NCBI GenBank assembly: GCA_903847585.1
Contig: CAINEC010000007.1
Span: forward strand, 72,112-121,325
Direction: 5' to 3'
Length of the DNA stretch: 49,214 bases
From: an uncultured Bacteroidota bacterium
GTDB taxonomy: Bacteria > Bacteroidota > Bacteroidia > AKYH767-A > OLB10
Notes under the pieces: generated by a model
Told to the model about the DNA's origin: nothing
Database searches by the model: none
What the model saw: only the letters and a program-made list of their open reading frames with translations
Part shown: piece by piece, positions 8,880 through 49,214 of the stretch
How the letters are laid out: each line of letters begins with the position of its first letter
How positions within the stretch are numbered: position 1 is the stretch's first letter
Made by a program: the position numbers and the translations under genes

Positions 8880-10730
8880 TCAAAGATTAATGAAATAATT
8901 ATAAGCCGATTGGATAAATGATTTTCCATTTGTAATACTGGTGCTGTCGGGTTGATTAATCATAGGTATTACAGACTTATTACTGTAGCTTATCTTAAAT
9001 GTGGATTGATTGTTTTTCCAAACAAATCCATCGTCATAATTCATATAGCAAAAATCATTTCTGTTATAATTAAGCAGATTGTTACTTAAAGGCAACTCTA
9101 CTTCAAGGTTTAAGATGCTTTTAATTGTTGCTGCATAATCTTGTTGGTTTCCGATGTTGCTTATTCTTTTATTTTTAAAATCATCTTTTAATGCAGGACC
9201 GAAAATCAATAAAGGGATTTTAAATGCAGCAGGTGAGCTGTAATCATTATTGCGCGGTAGTATATGGCCGTGATCAGCAACTAAAATAAAGATGGTGTTA
9301 TTATACCATTTTTCCTTCTTTGCTTTTTCAAAGAATTTCTTCAAACAATAATCTGTATAATAAGCGGCATTTTTAAATTTGATTGATTCACTATTGCCTT
9401 TGAATTTATTCGCTATTGGAATTGAAAATGGCTCATGTGTACTTTGTGTTAAAATAGCAGAGTAGAATGGAGGCTTTAATTTATTTATTGTAGTAATTGA
9501 TTTATCAAATAAGACTTCATCGTAAACACCCCATTTGCTAGTCCATTGTTCTACAGGAAAAGACTCCTTGCCGAGTATAATATCAAATTTTGCTTGTGTT
9601 AAATAGGATTTCATATTGGCAAATTCGACTTCGCCACCGTAATTAAAAGAGGTTTGATATCCTTTGTTTTTTATCGCATGTGTGATAAAAGGAAGATGCA
9701 TTGACTTATCTGAATATTTAATCACACTGATGTTTGGCATTGCAGGGAATCCTGAAAATAAAGATGGAAACATTAAGTCGGTCCGCTTACCTGCTGCGTA
9801 AATATTTTCAAACATCAGACCTTCCTTTTCTAGTGAATTGAAAAAAGGAGTAACCCCTTTTTCTCCATCCAATGATTCTATGACATCTGCTGTCCAACTT
9901 TCTAAAATGATAGTTACAATATTGGGATTTGAAACCGTCGTAATAGTAAAAGTGCTATCGCTAGATGTGTTATATAATTCAACTCTGTTTTTTTGCGCTT
10001 CAGCATCTTCCATAAATCGATAAGCTTTACTATCGATATTTTGAGCTTTGTAAACACTATTGATTAAATACCAAAAAGGATTTACAGTTGCCAGGTTTGC
10101 ATTCTCATTTTTAGAAAACATACAAACGCTTTCATTTATGGGTATTTGTTGAATCCCACCTCGAATACTGATTGGTAAAATAGGCAACCATAAAAGTATC
10201 AAGTGCTTGTTTAATCTTAGTGGTTTTGAAAATTTTGGTTGGATTGTTTTACGATAAATTGAATTAATACCGATGCCTAATCCAATAACAAAAACAATAA
10301 ATAAAATAAGTTGAATGCTGCTTAGAGATGCGATTACTTCTTTCGGACTACTTAAGAAAGATACAGCTCTTGCATTAATAAGAGTTCCCCAGGCAAAATA
10401 AATAACCAGATTGGCTAATAAAATAATTGCGACGAGGGGTAAAATGATTATAAGAAATGCATTCTTGATTTTTAATAATAATGACCAATTACTGTATTGA
10501 TAAATTATCCAGATTAAAATGGGTAAAGCTGCAATATAGCTGATGGCTGCTAAGTCAAGACGTAATGCATAGATGAATAAGTATGGAATATCAATGACTT
10601 CTATGGATTTGTCTTTTAAAAATACAAGCGCAACAAATAATACTCTAAATAATATGAACGTCAATTCCAGAAATAGAATTAACCGAAAAGGGTAGGAGTT
10701 AAATATGTTTTTTATCGATTTGTTATTCAT
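8880..10730 (-). CDS. LtaS/MdoB-like sulfatase-fold membrane transferase
   Basis: The 616-residue inner-membrane protein has about five N-terminal hydrophobic helices (residues about 12-165) and then an extracytoplasmic alkaline-phosphatase/sulfatase-fold domain. Metal and catalytic residues of lipoteichoic-acid-synthase-like enzymes are visible: E277 in ILESWT, the catalytic threonine T317 in GKRTDLMFPS, and D486/H487 in VADHGHILPRN. Relatives move phosphoglycerol or phosphoethanolamine from lipids to envelope glycans. Since this is a Gram-negative lineage, lipoteichoic acid itself is not expected, so the substrate is unknown; modification of lipid A or a surface glycan is one guess. The start overlaps the upstream Cas4-like gene by 4 bases, and it ends the folP operon. 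Confidence 0.87.
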   Translation of the reverse strand: MNNKSIKNIFNSYPFRLILFLELTFILFRVLFVALVFLKDKSIEVIDIPYLFIYALRLDLAAISYIAALPILIWIIYQYSNWSLLLKIKNAFLIIILPLVAIILLANLVIYFAWGTLINARAVSFLSSPKEVIASLSSIQLILFIVFVIGLGIGINSIYRKTIQPKFSKPLRLNKHLILLWLPILPISIRGGIQQIPINESVCMFSKNENANLATVNPFWYLINSVYKAQNIDSKAYRFMEDAEAQKNRVELYNTSSDSTFTITTVSNPNIVTIILESWTADVIESLDGEKGVTPFFNSLEKEGLMFENIYAAGKRTDLMFPSLFSGFPAMPNISVIKYSDKSMHLPFITHAIKNKGYQTSFNYGGEVEFANMKSYLTQAKFDIILGKESFPVEQWTSKWGVYDEVLFDKSITTINKLKPPFYSAILTQSTHEPFSIPIANKFKGNSESIKFKNAAYYTDYCLKKFFEKAKKEKWYNNTIFILVADHGHILPRNNDYSSPAAFKIPLLIFGPALKDDFKNKRISNIGNQQDYAATIKSILNLEVELPLSNNLLNYNRNDFCYMNYDDGFVWKNNQSTFKISYSNKSVIPMINQPDSTSITNGKSFIQSAYNYFINL

Positions 10731-11437
10731 GAAAATAATCCTTCGTTAATTTCTTCTTGCGGTCGATTACAAAATCCGATGAATTCACAGGTGTATGGCG
10801 AATTGCAATGTTCTCCTGTCGGTATATTTGGAATGCTAGGCAAAGCCAGTGTTGTTTTTAAATCTTTTACTTTTTCTTCCGTATCTATGAGTTGCTCTTT
10901 ACAAAAACTGGTCACCTCTTCAAATTGAAATAAGTCTGTTGGAATGTCTTCCATTTTCATTTCAATTACTTCGAGTCTCGGATAATTTAAACAGGATAAA
11001 TGAAATTCCTTTATCGGTAATCCACTGCCGTTAATAACATAATATTGCAAAGCTGCATCGATGCGGTTTGTTGCTGAAATTTTCTGACTCGATTTGATCT
11101 CGTAAATTTTCCACTCATCACCATCTTTGATAATAATATCAGCCATTACGAGGATATTGTTAAACTCAAATGTTGCTTCGTAAAGAATAGTATGTCCTTG
11201 TTCAATTAGTTTTTTTGTCTCTACAACAAGTACATCACGACTTTTCGAAATCAGACTAACATCTAGTCCGCCTCTGAAAAGATGTTGCGCCATAGCTCCA
11301 ACGATATGTCCACCTTCATACTTTTTTCTTTGCTCTTCTGTGAGTGGATCTTTCTCTTTTTTATAGTACTTGTCGAGGTAAATATATTTATGGCATTGAT
11401 GCCCTTTAAGAAAAGTCGATTTAGTTAGTAATGCCAT
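10727..11437 (-). CDS. PD-(D/E)XK nuclease-fold protein, DUF2779 N-terminal/Cas4-like, with four cysteines
   Basis: The 236-residue soluble protein looks like a RecB/Cas4-type nuclease domain. It has L-T-KSTFLKGHQC at the start (C15), EATFEF (E87), VMADIII (D100), a YEIKSS motif giving E113 and K115, and a downstream AALQYYV (Q131, Y132). Three more cysteines, C211, C217 and C223, lie in HCNSPYTCEFIGFC near the end. One cysteine before and three after the nuclease core is the pattern that binds a 4Fe-4S cluster in Cas4 and AddB. The sequence resembles the N-terminal half of DUF2779 proteins, which usually continue with another domain; here it stops. The start overlaps the folP end by 17 bases. 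No CRISPR array or cas gene is in the window, so a CRISPR role is not supported. Confidence 0.75.
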   Translation of the reverse strand: MALLTKSTFLKGHQCHKYIYLDKYYKKEKDPLTEEQRKKYEGGHIVGAMAQHLFRGGLDVSLISKSRDVLVVETKKLIEQGHTILYEATFEFNNILVMADIIIKDGDEWKIYEIKSSQKISATNRIDAALQYYVINGSGLPIKEFHLSCLNYPRLEVIEMKMEDIPTDLFQFEEVTSFCKEQLIDTEEKVKDLKTTLALPSIPNIPTGEHCNSPYTCEFIGFCNRPQEEINEGLFS

Positions 11438-12272
11438 TATATCGCTTATACAATTGAATTGTTTGAACTGCTTCTTTTACATCATGAACTCTCAAGATAC
11501 TTGCACCATTCATTAAGCTAATCATGTTTAATGCGGTAGTTCCGTTTAGAGATTCGTCTGCCGTTATTCCAAGCGATTTATAAATCATCGATTTTCTGGA
11601 TAGTCCAGCAAGTACAGGTACATTAAGGTTTTTAAAAATGTTTAGGTTTTTTAAAAGTACAAAATTCTGGTCGATATTCTTTGCAAAGCCAAATCCCGGA
11701 TCGATGATAATATCGTTAACACCACGGTTTTTCAATTCAATAATTTTTGATTGAAAATATTTATAAGCCTCGACAACTAAATTATCATAGGTTGCTAAAT
11801 TTTTCATGTTTTCAGGACTTCCCTTCATATGCATCAGAATGTAGGGTACTTTTAATTCTTCTACAATCGTAAACATGTTCTTATCTAATGAACCTCCTGA
11901 AATATCGTTTATTATTTGCGCTCCTGCATATACTGCTTCCTGCGCAACAATTGAATTATACGTGTCGATTGAAATAACTGCATCTGGAAAATGCTTTATT
12001 GCACTTTTAATAAACGGGATGGTCCTCGATAATTCCTCGTCTGTGCTAAGTGTATTTGCTCCTGGTCGTGATGACGCTCCGCCAATATCAATAATCATCG
12101 CTCCTTCATCTAACATTTGCTCAAACCGTTTGATAAAGGCTAATTCTTCATTAAATTTGCCACCGTCATAGAAGGAATCGGGAGTAGTGTTCAGAATGCC
12201 CATCGCAATAGGATGCTCTAAACTGATAAGTTTGTTTCCACAGTTAATGCTGTTAGCAAGATTCCCCTTCAT
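11421..12272 (-). CDS. folP: Dihydropteroate synthase
   Basis: Condenses p-aminobenzoate with dihydropterin pyrophosphate in folate synthesis; the sulfonamide target. The 283-residue TIM barrel has the standard motifs: MGILNTTPDSFYDGG at residues 24-38, DIGGASSRPGA around residue 63, SIDTYNS, INDISGG, MHMKGSPENM and DPGFGFAKN. The C-terminal RVHDVKEAVQT segment is also typical. Length is normal. It is first in a three-gene minus-strand unit with the Cas4-like gene and the LtaS-like gene, and divergent from the DUF1599 gene with a 51-base gap. No perfect TAnnTTTG is seen for it. Confidence 0.96.
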   Translation of the reverse strand: MKGNLANSINCGNKLISLEHPIAMGILNTTPDSFYDGGKFNEELAFIKRFEQMLDEGAMIIDIGGASSRPGANTLSTDEELSRTIPFIKSAIKHFPDAVISIDTYNSIVAQEAVYAGAQIINDISGGSLDKNMFTIVEELKVPYILMHMKGSPENMKNLATYDNLVVEAYKYFQSKIIELKNRGVNDIIIDPGFGFAKNIDQNFVLLKNLNIFKNLNVPVLAGLSRKSMIYKSLGITADESLNGTTALNMISLMNGASILRVHDVKEAVQTIQLYKRYNGITN

Positions 12273-12323
12273 GTGATAAGTTTTAACTACTGATTATTGA
12301 TATTTGTATAGAATTAAAGAATT

Positions 12324-12869
12324 ATGTCTGAATTAACATCCCTGCAATACGACAAAGCTATTTCTCGCTGTAAAGATATTTATATTGCCAAAATGAAGGA
12401 CTATGGCAGCGCATGGAGAATTTTACGCGCCACTTCATTGACGGATCAAATTCAAATCAAGGCTAACCGCATCAGAAGTATTGAGACGAAAGGTGAGCAA
12501 AAAGTCACAGAGGGGATTGATAGTGAGTTTATCGGAATTATCAATTATTCCATAATGGCACTTATTCAAATTGAATTGGGGACTGATGATACTTCAGAAT
12601 TAGAATATCAAAGAGCCGTTTCTTTATACGATTCAAAGATTTCAGAAGTGAAAAATTTAATGCTGAATAAAAATCATGATTATGGCGAGGCTTGGAGAGA
12701 AATGCGTGTTAGTTCTATGACTGATTTAATCTTGATGAAATTAAAACGAATTAAGCAGATTGAAGATAATCAAGGTGCCACATTAATTAGTGAAGGTGTT
12801 GATGCCAATTATCAAGACATAATTAATTACGCTGTTTTTGCGTTGATTAAGCTTGATGAATCAAAATAA
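12324..12869 (+). CDS. Tandem DUF1599 (nucleotide-modification-associated) protein
   Basis: The 181-residue protein is made of two similar halves. Residues about 12-90 contain KDIYIAKMKDYGSAWR, SLTDQIQIKANRIRSIE and GIINYSIMALIQIE. Residues about 105-180 repeat this as KNLMLNKNHDYGEAWR, SMTDLILMKLKRIKQIE and DIINYAVFALIKLD. This is the DUF1599 module, also called nucleotide modification associated domain 1, in its usual double form in Bacteroidota. The molecular function is not known; the helical acidic character recalls all-alpha NTP-binding folds, but that is speculation. It heads a plus-strand unit with the BT_3928-type gene (16-base gap) and the permease. GATATTTG at 12299-12306 is a 7/8 promoter match. 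Confidence 0.85.
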   Translation: MSELTSLQYDKAISRCKDIYIAKMKDYGSAWRILRATSLTDQIQIKANRIRSIETKGEQKVTEGIDSEFIGIINYSIMALIQIELGTDDTSELEYQRAVSLYDSKISEVKNLMLNKNHDYGEAWREMRVSSMTDLILMKLKRIKQIEDNQGATLISEGVDANYQDIINYAVFALIKLDESK

Positions 12870-46438: not shown

Positions 46439-49214
46439 TTAATGAATAACTTCGACTCTTTTAAGTTCAATCCCTTCATCAGTGATTGTTCTTATTAAGT
46501 AAATGCCATCATCGTAAGATGATAAATCTAAAATTCGCTCATTACCGAAAGTAGAAATAATCGATCCTTGCAAATTCAAAATCTCAATTTTTTCTATTGA
46601 TTTTGATGTTTCAATATTTAAAATGCCATTTGTTGGATTAGGATAGATTTTAGTTGTTGAATTTACAACATTGTCAATTATTCTACTAGTAGAACATGAG
46701 TTAACATATTTTATTCTAAAGCCGCTTGATCCACAATCATTGTTTGCTTTCACCAATATCTTTCCTCTTACAGTACCAGCAATAACTTGAATACTTGTGG
46801 TTCCTTGTCCAGAAATAATTGTCCATCCTGCTGGTTTTTGCCATGTGTAAGATGTAGCACCTGGGACAGGTAAAATACTATAGGTTACAATTTGATTTGG
46901 TGTAGTATTATAAGGTCCTGTAATTGTACCTGGCTTATCAGGGTAAAGCGTAATTGAAAGACATCTTGCTGGGCTTGATAAACAACCGTTAGAAGCTGAA
47001 ACAGTAATTTGTGGGCCTGTACAAGTATTGCAAGAACCTAAAGTCGAACCAAAGTTTACAATAATTGAATTCGTGCCTTGTCCACTAACAATTGTTGCAC
47101 CCGAAGGAACCACCCAGTTATATGTTAAACCAATAACATTCGTAACTGAATAAACGACATTTTGCATGTTGCATAAGTTATTTGTTGGTCCTGAAATAAT
47201 AGATGGCGTAGCTGGCGCATTACCACTAGGTGCTATAGTAAGTGATAGCACATAGTCTTGGCAATTTGAATTGTAGTAATAGTTACCTGATTGTGTATAG
47301 GTTTGTCCATTAATGTTCCAAGTGTAGCTGGTGCATGCTGACGCATTAGTAGTAATAGGTGGGTTTGGAGTTCCAGTAACATCCCAAGAGCATGTTGAAG
47401 TATTAAAGTTCGCAGTTTGGTAACAAGCTAATGTTGGCTGAGCAGGTTGCGATCCAGTTACTACCCAAGAACAAGATGTATTGTTAAATGTTGCAGTTTG
47501 ATAACATGCTAATGTCGGTTGAGCTGGTTGAGTACCACTCACAATCCAACGACAATAAGTATTGCTAAAATAAGCAGTTTGATAACAAGCTAATGTTGGC
47601 TTAGGAGGCTTACATCCGGTAACTACCCAAGAGCAAGTAGTATTATTAAATGTTGCAGACTGATAACAAGCCAAAGTTGGCTGAGTCGGTTGTGAACCAG
47701 TAACCACCCAAGAACAAGAGGTGTTGTTGAACGAAGCTGTTTGATAACAAGCTAAAGTCGGTTGTGCAGGCTGAGAACCCGTTACCACCCAAGAACAAGA
47801 AGTGTTATTAAACGAAGCTGTTTGATAACAAGCTAATGTTGGTTGTGTAGGTTGTGAACCTGAAACATCCCAGGAGCATGTATTAGTATTAAAGTTTGCA
47901 GTTTGGTAACAAGCTAATGTTGGTTGTGTAGGTTGTGAACCTGAAACATCCCAAGAGCATGTAGTCGTATTAAAGTTTGCTGTTTGGTAACAAGCCAATG
48001 TTGGTTGTATAGGTTGAGAACCAGTTACCATCCAAGAACAAGAGGTGTTGTTGAACGTAGCTGTTTGATAACAAGCTAAAGTCGGTTGTGTAGGCTGAGA
48101 ACCCGTTACCACCCAAGAACAAGAAGTATTATTGAATGATGCAGATTGATAACATGTTAGCGTTGGTTGAATTGGTTGAGTACCAGTCACAATCCAACGA
48201 CAATAGGTATTGCTAAAATAAGCTGTTTGATAACAAGCTAATGTTGGCTTAGGAGGTTTGCATCCAGTAATAACCCATTGACAAGTAGTATTATTAAATG
48301 TAGCAGATTGATAACAAGCTAAAGTAGGTTGTGCAGGTTGTGATCCGGTTACATCCCATGAACATGTCGTTGTATTAAAGTTTGCTGTTTGATAACAAGC
48401 TAAGCTTGGTTGTGTAGGTTGTGAACCTGTAACATCCCAAGAGCATGTATTAGTGTTAAAGTTTGCAGATTGGTAACAAGCTAAGCTTGGTTGTGTAGGC
48501 TGTGTTCCAGTTACATCCCATGAACATGTTGTAGTATTAAAGTTGGCAGTTTGATAACAAGCTAAACTTGGTTGAGCAGGTTGTGATCCTGATACATCCC
48601 AAGAGCAAGTTGTCGTATTAAAGTTGGCAGTTTGATAACAAGCTAAGCTTGGTTGTGTAGGTTGTGAACCTGTAACATCCCAAGAGCATGTATTAGTATT
48701 AAAGTTTGCAGATTGGTAACAAGCTAAGCTTGGTTGTGCAGGCTGTGTTCCTGTTACATCCCATGAACATGTTGTAGTATTAAAGTTGGCAGTTTGATAA
48801 CAAGCTAAACTTGGTTGAGCAGGTTGTGACCCAGTTACAATCCACGAACATGATGTATTGTTAAATGTTGCAGATTGATAACATGCTAGCGTCGGTTGAG
48901 TTGGTTGAGTACCACTCACAATCCAACGACAATAGGTATTGCTAAAATATGCTGTTTGATAACACGCTAATGTTGGCTTAGGAGGCTTGCATCCAGTAAT
49001 AACCCATTGACAAGTAGCATTATTAAATGTAGCTGATTGGTAACAAGCTAAACTTGGTTGCGCAGGTTGTGATCCTGTAACATCCCATTGGCATGTTGTT
49101 CCGTTGAAGTTTGCAGATTGATAACAAGCTAAATTTGGTTGCAATGGTTGTGATCCTGTAACATCCCATGAACATGTCGTTGTATTAAAATTTGCAGTTT
49201 GATAACAAACTAAA
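46439..49214 (-). CDS. T9SS type A protein with a long CYQ-repeat array, 5' end beyond the window
   Basis: Partial gene: the frame runs unbroken to base 49214, so the true start lies outside; the TTG at 49144 is merely a codon inside the repeats. The visible part is about 925 residues. The first 615 or so are 23 copies of a 27-residue repeat (consensus QPTLACYQTANFNTTTCSWD followed by VTGSQPT) with two cysteines and two conserved aromatics each. Then follow a module with SYTWNINGQTYTQSGNYYY, two PKD-like modules (NLCNMQNVVYSVTN, TPNQIVTYSILPVPGATSYTW) and a T9SS type A sorting domain (IYPNPTNGI to RVEVIH). By composition it is a secreted, disulfide-rich fibrous or adhesive protein. Function not known. 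Confidence 0.9.
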   Translation of the reverse strand, partial: LVCYQTANFNTTTCSWDVTGSQPLQPNLACYQSANFNGTTCQWDVTGSQPAQPSLACYQSATFNNATCQWVITGCKPPKPTLACYQTAYFSNTYCRWIVSGTQPTQPTLACYQSATFNNTSCSWIVTGSQPAQPSLACYQTANFNTTTCSWDVTGTQPAQPSLACYQSANFNTNTCSWDVTGSQPTQPSLACYQTANFNTTTCSWDVSGSQPAQPSLACYQTANFNTTTCSWDVTGTQPTQPSLACYQSANFNTNTCSWDVTGSQPTQPSLACYQTANFNTTTCSWDVTGSQPAQPTLACYQSATFNNTTCQWVITGCKPPKPTLACYQTAYFSNTYCRWIVTGTQPIQPTLTCYQSASFNNTSCSWVVTGSQPTQPTLACYQTATFNNTSCSWMVTGSQPIQPTLACYQTANFNTTTCSWDVSGSQPTQPTLACYQTANFNTNTCSWDVSGSQPTQPTLACYQTASFNNTSCSWVVTGSQPAQPTLACYQTASFNNTSCSWVVTGSQPTQPTLACYQSATFNNTTCSWVVTGCKPPKPTLACYQTAYFSNTYCRWIVSGTQPAQPTLACYQTATFNNTSCSWVVTGSQPAQPTLACYQTANFNTSTCSWDVTGTPNPPITTNASACTSYTWNINGQTYTQSGNYYYNSNCQDYVLSLTIAPSGNAPATPSIISGPTNNLCNMQNVVYSVTNVIGLTYNWVVPSGATIVSGQGTNSIIVNFGSTLGSCNTCTGPQITVSASNGCLSSPARCLSITLYPDKPGTITGPYNTTPNQIVTYSILPVPGATSYTWQKPAGWTIISGQGTTSIQVIAGTVRGKILVKANNDCGSSGFRIKYVNSCSTSRIIDNVVNSTTKIYPNPTNGILNIETSKSIEKIEILNLQGSIISTFGNERILDLSSYDDGIYLIRTITDEGIELKRVEVIH
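47365..49214 (-). repeat. 81-bp tandem coding repeat array, about 23 units
   Basis: The unit is 81 bases (27 codons), with no indels between units. Three places carry a variant pair (GCKPP ending followed by a KPTLACYQTAYFSNTYCRW unit): near 48980-49060, 48250-48330 and 47600-47680. They are nine and eight units apart, so a higher-order block of about 650-730 bases has been duplicated. A three-unit block (243 bases) is also repeated (units 5-7 and 8-10 counting from 49141 downwards). The array continues past the window edge. Confidence 0.95.

Follow-up and report, generated by a model that had tools for sequence, protein, structure and literature searches.

Proteins in which a Cas4-like nuclease half is fused to a DUF2779 half (UU173, or Cas4-DUF2779; NF045869, with PF11074 and a DUF83-like part) seem to be uncharacterised, judging from the passages of the literature that deal with DUF2779. 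In a 2014 classification, DUF2779 is placed among the presumed 3′–5′ exonucleases, with a DUF83 partner (PMC3985635). In Mycoplasma bovis, a DUF2779 transposon mutant was one of six that were growth-deficient in cell culture and normal in axenic medium, other mutants of that six including those of RecD, HolA, and NrnA (PMC7373297). No shortened or exonuclease-dead form is described in the DUF2779 passages of these two papers, and the term DUF2779 is absent from the main text of a Cas4 survey, based on a term count (PMC5704561). For Cas4 itself, 5′-to-3′ exonuclease activity is reported for a CRISPR-associated archaeal enzyme (PMC12538437), and the survey mentions disagreement over polarity for another Cas4 (PMC5704561).

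Here, a stand-alone Cas4-like gene is described from a 49,214-nucleotide stretch of an uncultured Bacteroidota genome, the whole of which is referred to as the window. The encoded protein is homologous to the N-terminal half of the Cas4-DUF2779 proteins and has the same invariant residues, but is without any DUF2779 half. Both the kinship and the missing downstream part had been proposed in a first-pass annotation of the sequence, and both stood up to comparison. PF11074 has no match at E≤1 in the genome, a search in which 0 of 14 control genomes pass the cut-off either and all 59 intact relatives match. It is proposed, with a probability of roughly 0.7, that this is the Cas4-like half of a Cas4-DUF2779 protein, the exonuclease half of which was inactivated and, in most carriers, deleted, and that it trims chromosomal DNA ends.

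The stand-alone gene and its nuclease core

The gene (10727–11437, minus strand) is an open frame with an ATG start and a 236 aa product, and its assignment as a Cas4-like PD-(D/E)XK nuclease is based on the translation, weak family matches, and the predicted structure. Upstream, it overlaps folP (dihydropteroate synthase; 11421–12272, minus strand; PF00809, E 7e-72) by 17 bases. Downstream, it overlaps by 4 bases a sulfatase-fold gene (8880–10730, minus strand; PF00884) that is LtaS-like, with an NCBIfam LtaS score of 77 bits (cut-off 970). Both overlaps had been reported in the first-pass annotation and were reproduced from the coordinates. Divergent from folP is a DUF1599 gene (nucleotide modification associated domain 1; 12324–12869, plus strand; PF07659, E 2e-61). 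There is a single copy of the Cas4-like gene in the genome, an assembly of 2,989,298 bases in 203 contigs (99.0 % complete, 4.3 % contaminated). Homologues are present in 27 of the 61 genomes searched, this one included, as open frames of two sizes, 244–285 or 475–547 aa, therefore 10727–11437 is not a chance open reading frame.

Family models recognise the protein weakly. It scores 18 bits with Cas_Cas4 (PF01930), below the gathering cut-off of 22.7, and 23.7 bits with UU173 (NF045869), against a cut-off of 225. A full-size Bizionia protein, at 66.1 bits, is likewise under the NF045869 cut-off and the model is therefore too narrow to judge Bacteroidota. At E≤0.01, PF01930 recognises 27 of 59 full-size relatives with an intact exonuclease half and 13 of 24 with a dead one. 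The best match to the PADLOC Cas4 models has an E of 9e-5. A search of solved structures by sequence returned one chance-level match, and there was no match in viral contigs, in a scan that reaches close relatives only. Among the best 80 of 326 matches, the named relatives nearest to it come from metagenome assemblies of Bacteroidota. Homologues in Flavobacteriaceae include those of Bizionia arctica and Hyunsoonleella jejuensis.

The first-pass annotation had called for a structural comparison with Cas4. The model of the 236 aa protein (pLDDT 94.7) has type I-C Cas4, SSO0001, and Pcal_0546 as its best Foldseek rows (E 6e-5 to 1e-4; TM by query 0.31–0.47), and matches to Cas4 chains overall are modest (E 6e-5 to 6e-4; TM by query 0.31–0.52). 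With a second aligner, the best match is a Cas4/Cas1 fusion (Z 13.2, 194 residues, 4.0 Å), followed by SSO0001 (Z 12.6), with AdnA at 10.4 and the Argonaute-associated Cas4 ACE1 at 9.6. Human EXO5, an iron-sulfur single-strand exonuclease with a role in repair, shares the fold (Z 10.7, 179 residues) at 11 % identity. Cap-snatching endonucleases are found among the weak Foldseek rows, and PD-(D/E)XK enzymes include RNases. However, a role in RNA processing or RNA-end trimming is very unlikely, as the structures that the model matches best belong to DNA nucleases or to the nuclease parts of DNA-processing machines and the partner domain of the full-size relatives is of the polymerase-proofreading type.

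In an alignment of 114 nuclease halves, including that of the window protein, K6, C15, E87, D100, E113, K115, Q131, C211, C217, and C223 are invariant. This alignment is without the far member L027, which keeps the same residues in a smaller alignment, and without 66 further loci. Aside from the four closest, the 113 aligned relatives, both short and full-size, are 29–45 % identical to the window protein. On the minus strand, the codon for C15 is at 11393–11395, that for E87 at 11177–11179, the core from D100 to E113-x-K115 at 11093–11140, Q131 at 11045–11047, and the run from C211 to C223 at 10769–10807. The residues named in the first-pass annotation (C15, D100, E113, K115, Q131, Y132, C211, C217, and C223) are all at the correct positions in the translation, and the RecB/Cas4-type core that it recognised is upheld by the invariance of the catalytic residues and by the predicted Cas4-type fold. 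Homologues lacking the cysteines or catalytic residues, which it had considered contrary to a nuclease, were not found among the 114 sequences.

It is probable, from their conservation, that C15, C211, C217, and C223 ligate an iron-sulfur cluster. The spacing of the last three in the window protein is C-x5-C-x5-C, whereas that of Cas4 and AddB is C-x2-C-x5-C. The Cas4/AddB-like pattern reported earlier is therefore retained as to the four cysteines, but not as to their spacing. The solo-Cas4 proteins (SSO0001, Pcal_0546) have in common with the window protein the fold, the catalytic residues, the four cysteines, and a non-CRISPR setting, but the window protein differs from them in its x5/x5 spacing, in belonging to a different sequence family by its PF01930 score, and in its apparent origin from a fusion protein that lost a domain.

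The Cas4-like gene is under purifying selection among genus-mates, somewhat less constrained than its neighbours. The dN/dS is 0.038–0.124 (YN00) and 0.058–0.130 (NG86) for six of ten pairs, the four pairs not computed all involving the window's own gene, and is 0.046–0.090 for folP and 0.023–0.060 for DUF1599 by both methods; these values are rough, with some dS above 1. That the short gene might be a decaying remnant without function is suggested by the loss of half of the ancestral protein and by relatives without the gene, but is hardly credible given the dN/dS of 0.04–0.13, the invariant active-site residues, and the absence of internal stops in all 17 copies from the family.

Intact, dead, and short forms of the exonuclease half

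The long relatives are Cas4-DUF2779 proteins, PF11074 matching at E≤0.01 in 59 of 59 intact and 19 of 24 dead rows. In a model of one intact full-size relative, L012 (pLDDT 94.3), residues 1–231 match Cas4 (Z 13.4), and for residues 292–496 the matches are to exonuclease domains from family-B polymerases (Z up to 15.6), the best being that of polymerase alpha. The match to the polymerases comes from the second aligner; in the 50 Foldseek rows shown for L012 they are absent, Cas4 and MGME1 coming first and then low-probability RNase-H-like rows (spliceosome and integrase entries). The DUF2779 half is thus predicted to have a polymerase-B-type 3′–5′ exonuclease fold, in agreement with where passages of the 2014 classification place DUF2779 (PMC3985635).

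Exonuclease states were mapped on alignment columns D299, E301, and D476 across 226 loci, redundant loci included, of which 144 are intact, 25 dead, 45 short, seven end-cut, and five partial. D299, E301, Y472, and D476 are invariant in the 59 intact rows, partly by choice, the rows having been selected by DxE and C..D motifs. The mean pairwise identity of these rows is 54 % in both halves. In the 24 dead rows it is 54 % in the nuclease half and 20 % in the exonuclease half, supporting the Cas4-like half as the selected core of the protein.

In the family to which the window belongs, 17 of the 24 genomes carry the gene, these 24 being all that the search returned; among those with a completeness of 90 % or more and a contamination of 5 % or less, it is present in 13 of 19. 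With seven of the 24 genomes missing it, the gene is probably dispensable. Short forms account for 15 of the 17 carriers, including the window protein, which ends 13 residues past its last cysteine. The other two, G008 and G013, are full-size with a dead exonuclease, one having lost all three of the catalytic acids checked and the other two of three. An intact exonuclease half is found in none of the 17.

A neighbouring clade of 21–22 proteins retains the dead exonuclease domain; all 22 of its rows come from the best 80 of 326 genome-contig matches by similarity to the query, a selection that is not representative. Of 395 class genomes drawn evenly, 121 have a match, and the 111 near-complete loci (excluding fragments and one further match in G416) are 95 intact, 11 short, one dead, one partial, and three cut. 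Dead forms are therefore rare in this draw. The 11 short loci are divided between family groups f1 (five), f18 (three), and f49, f24, and f39 (one each), those of f24 (L152) and f39 (L151) being distant, with N-terminal extensions in open frame. L127 appears to be interrupted rather than short. Polymerase alpha, which the DUF2779 half matches best in structure, has likewise retained its proofreading domain, there as part of a polymerase, after loss of activity, so that an inactive exonuclease domain is kept both there and in the dead clade.

The 15 short forms of the family group together in three quick trees, with support of 97* (with two added long-branch rows), 96* (without L027, L127, L133, L151, L152, contig-cut rows, duplicates, and intact rows more than 68 % alike), and 98*. 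A set of 37 rows with no intact member, made up of the 15 short forms, 21 dead rows (15 with Bacteroidales in the title), and a lone dead row, L142, has support of 89, which is not starred. L148 is placed within the dead clade by one tree and left unplaced by the other; L017 and L118, which retain one of the three catalytic positions, are scored as dead. Neither a clade of the short forms of the family with L017 and L013, the dead full-size forms from G013 and G008 (p-AU 0.82), nor a single clade of the set's 19 short forms (p-AU 0.91) is rejected, and both constrained clades have a likelihood above that of the free quick tree, the deep branching being weak. The tree is therefore no proof of how many losses there were, nor of an order of inactivation and then loss. 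Several independent losses were considered on minimum-change counts of 4 and 3, but were set aside because the single short-form clade is not rejected. The simplest reading is that the exonuclease half was inactivated and then deleted within the family, and it is helped by position, the gene of G013 (full-size, dead) and that of G014 (short) both lying between folP and kdsA.

The short protein ends close to the point of transition to the DUF2779 half in full-size relatives. Here there is a G-L-F (residues 233–235; 10733–10741, minus strand) in a low-confidence tail, the last six residues of the model having a mean pLDDT of 57. In 12 of the 15 short family members, [GS]-L-F is at the end or within three residues of it and the rest of the tail is variable. 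Bacterial sliding-clamp binding peptides end in L-F. The [GS]-L-F may therefore be a docking motif, or may be what is left of the S-V-F found after the last cysteine of full-size forms. It is conceivable, but quite unlikely, that a docking tail replaced the exonuclease half, which would make this an end-trimming nuclease tethered to the replisome, with 3′–5′ activity supplied in trans by the stand-alone polymerase-B-like exonuclease PF10108. This exonuclease is present in 312 of the 395 class genomes, including that of the window. Trans-complementation by it as the cause of the loss was rejected, since those 312 include carriers of the intact form and its presence does not discriminate.

Gene neighbourhoods and genome context

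The link to folP appears to be local and is probably incidental. The Cas4-like gene is adjacent to folP in ten of the 17 family carriers, folP is elsewhere in six, and in one it was not found; the linkage, for which a conservation check had been suggested, is therefore conserved in part. In G007 (L179), in which the Cas4-like gene was not found, folP directly overlaps the LtaS-like gene, and in its genus-mate G020 the Cas4-like gene lies between the two. Functional coupling to folate synthesis, as the first-pass annotation had implied, has in its favour the 17-base overlap, the ten adjacent carriers, and FolA- or FolD-like genes nearby in other clades. It is nevertheless highly improbable, with folP elsewhere or not found in the remaining carriers and running directly into the LtaS-like gene where the Cas4-like gene is missing. 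The neighbours in the family include folP, the LtaS-like gene, kdsA, and other genes.

Two further patterns were seen around these genes. At 18 of 22 family folP loci, folP and DUF1599 (11421–12869 in the window) lie next to each other in divergent orientation, with or without the Cas4-like gene. FolA- and FolD-like genes recur near Cas4-like relatives in other clades; for example, in L077, L082, L083, and L090 a FolA-like gene is directly upstream on the same strand.

Neighbourhoods were surveyed at 94 loci, 80 of them the best 80 of 326 matches. In the dead clade, a DnaB-family gene is one or two places downstream in 16 of 21 loci, and PF10108 is one or two places upstream in 14 of those 16 and in one contig-cut locus, one member of each neighbour group having been identified by Pfam. 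The gene order of PF10108 3′–5′ exonuclease, Cas4-like with dead DUF2779, and DnaB is seen in L104, L107, L109, and others, mostly in Bacteroidales-titled genomes.

CRISPR-associated Cas4 has cas1/cas2 neighbours or an array. In the window genome, 99 % complete, there is no match to Cas1 at E≤1, for which the control was positive in 10 of 14 genomes, and there is no CRISPR-like repeat array within the window. These results agree with the lack of a CRISPR array reported in the first-pass annotation, and a role in CRISPR adaptation was discarded. At 47372–49153 there are 22 head-to-tail 81-base units (27 codons) without spacers, 65–88 % identical to the reference copy, which are probably part of a repeat-rich protein and not CRISPR. 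ACE1 has an Argonaute partner, but no Piwi/Argonaute match at E≤1 was found in the window genome (control positive in 2 of 14), and an Argonaute partnership was likewise discarded.

The protein might instead serve in innate defence, as a nuclease that acts on incoming DNA, like the plasmid-limiting Cas4-like nuclease of Synechococcus elongatus, passages on which describe the plasmid effect (PMC10653904). This is supported by the PADLOC matches, the patchy presence in 17 of 24 family genomes, and the structural likeness to ACE1. The far stand-alone relative L152 (3635–4564) lies among genes that by eye look like helicase and AlkB genes, possibly a defence or repair island. A defence role is nevertheless unlikely: in the genus of the window the neighbours are ordinary (folP, the LtaS-like gene, and others), there is neither a Piwi nor a Cas1 match in the genome, and the neighbouring dead clade adjoins DnaB and an exonuclease. 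In addition, the dN/dS is like that of an ordinary conserved gene, pairwise values leaving room for local positive selection. The earlier suggestion of repair or defence outside CRISPR thus gains on the side of repair, for which the neighbours of the dead clade suggest replication or repair, and has little evidence on the side of defence.

Proposed role

Most likely, the window protein would be a chromosomal iron-sulfur exonuclease of single-stranded DNA, acting in repair or replication. In the proposed sequence of events, the exonuclease half would have lost its catalytic residues before being deleted. In the remaining half, the four cysteines would hold a 4Fe-4S cluster, and E87, D100, E113, K115, and Q131 would coordinate metal and cleave single-stranded DNA starting at an end, the most likely direction being 5′ to 3′, as reported for Cas4. 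The trimming of DNA ends by this enzyme would serve repair or replication of the chromosome, not CRISPR adaptation. This view of chromosomal DNA-end processing draws on passages describing the M. bovis mutants (PMC7373297) and the polarity reported for Cas4 (PMC12538437); the role in repair would rest partly on the neighbours of another clade, that with the dead exonuclease.

The comparison shows which half of the Cas4-DUF2779 protein is kept by selection, the Cas4-like half being retained without change in proteins whose exonuclease half is decayed or missing. The stand-alone 236 aa form is therefore a minimal, tractable protein for the roles of Cas4-like nucleases outside CRISPR, and the DnaB and exonuclease neighbourhood of the dead clade gives a concrete direction as to function.
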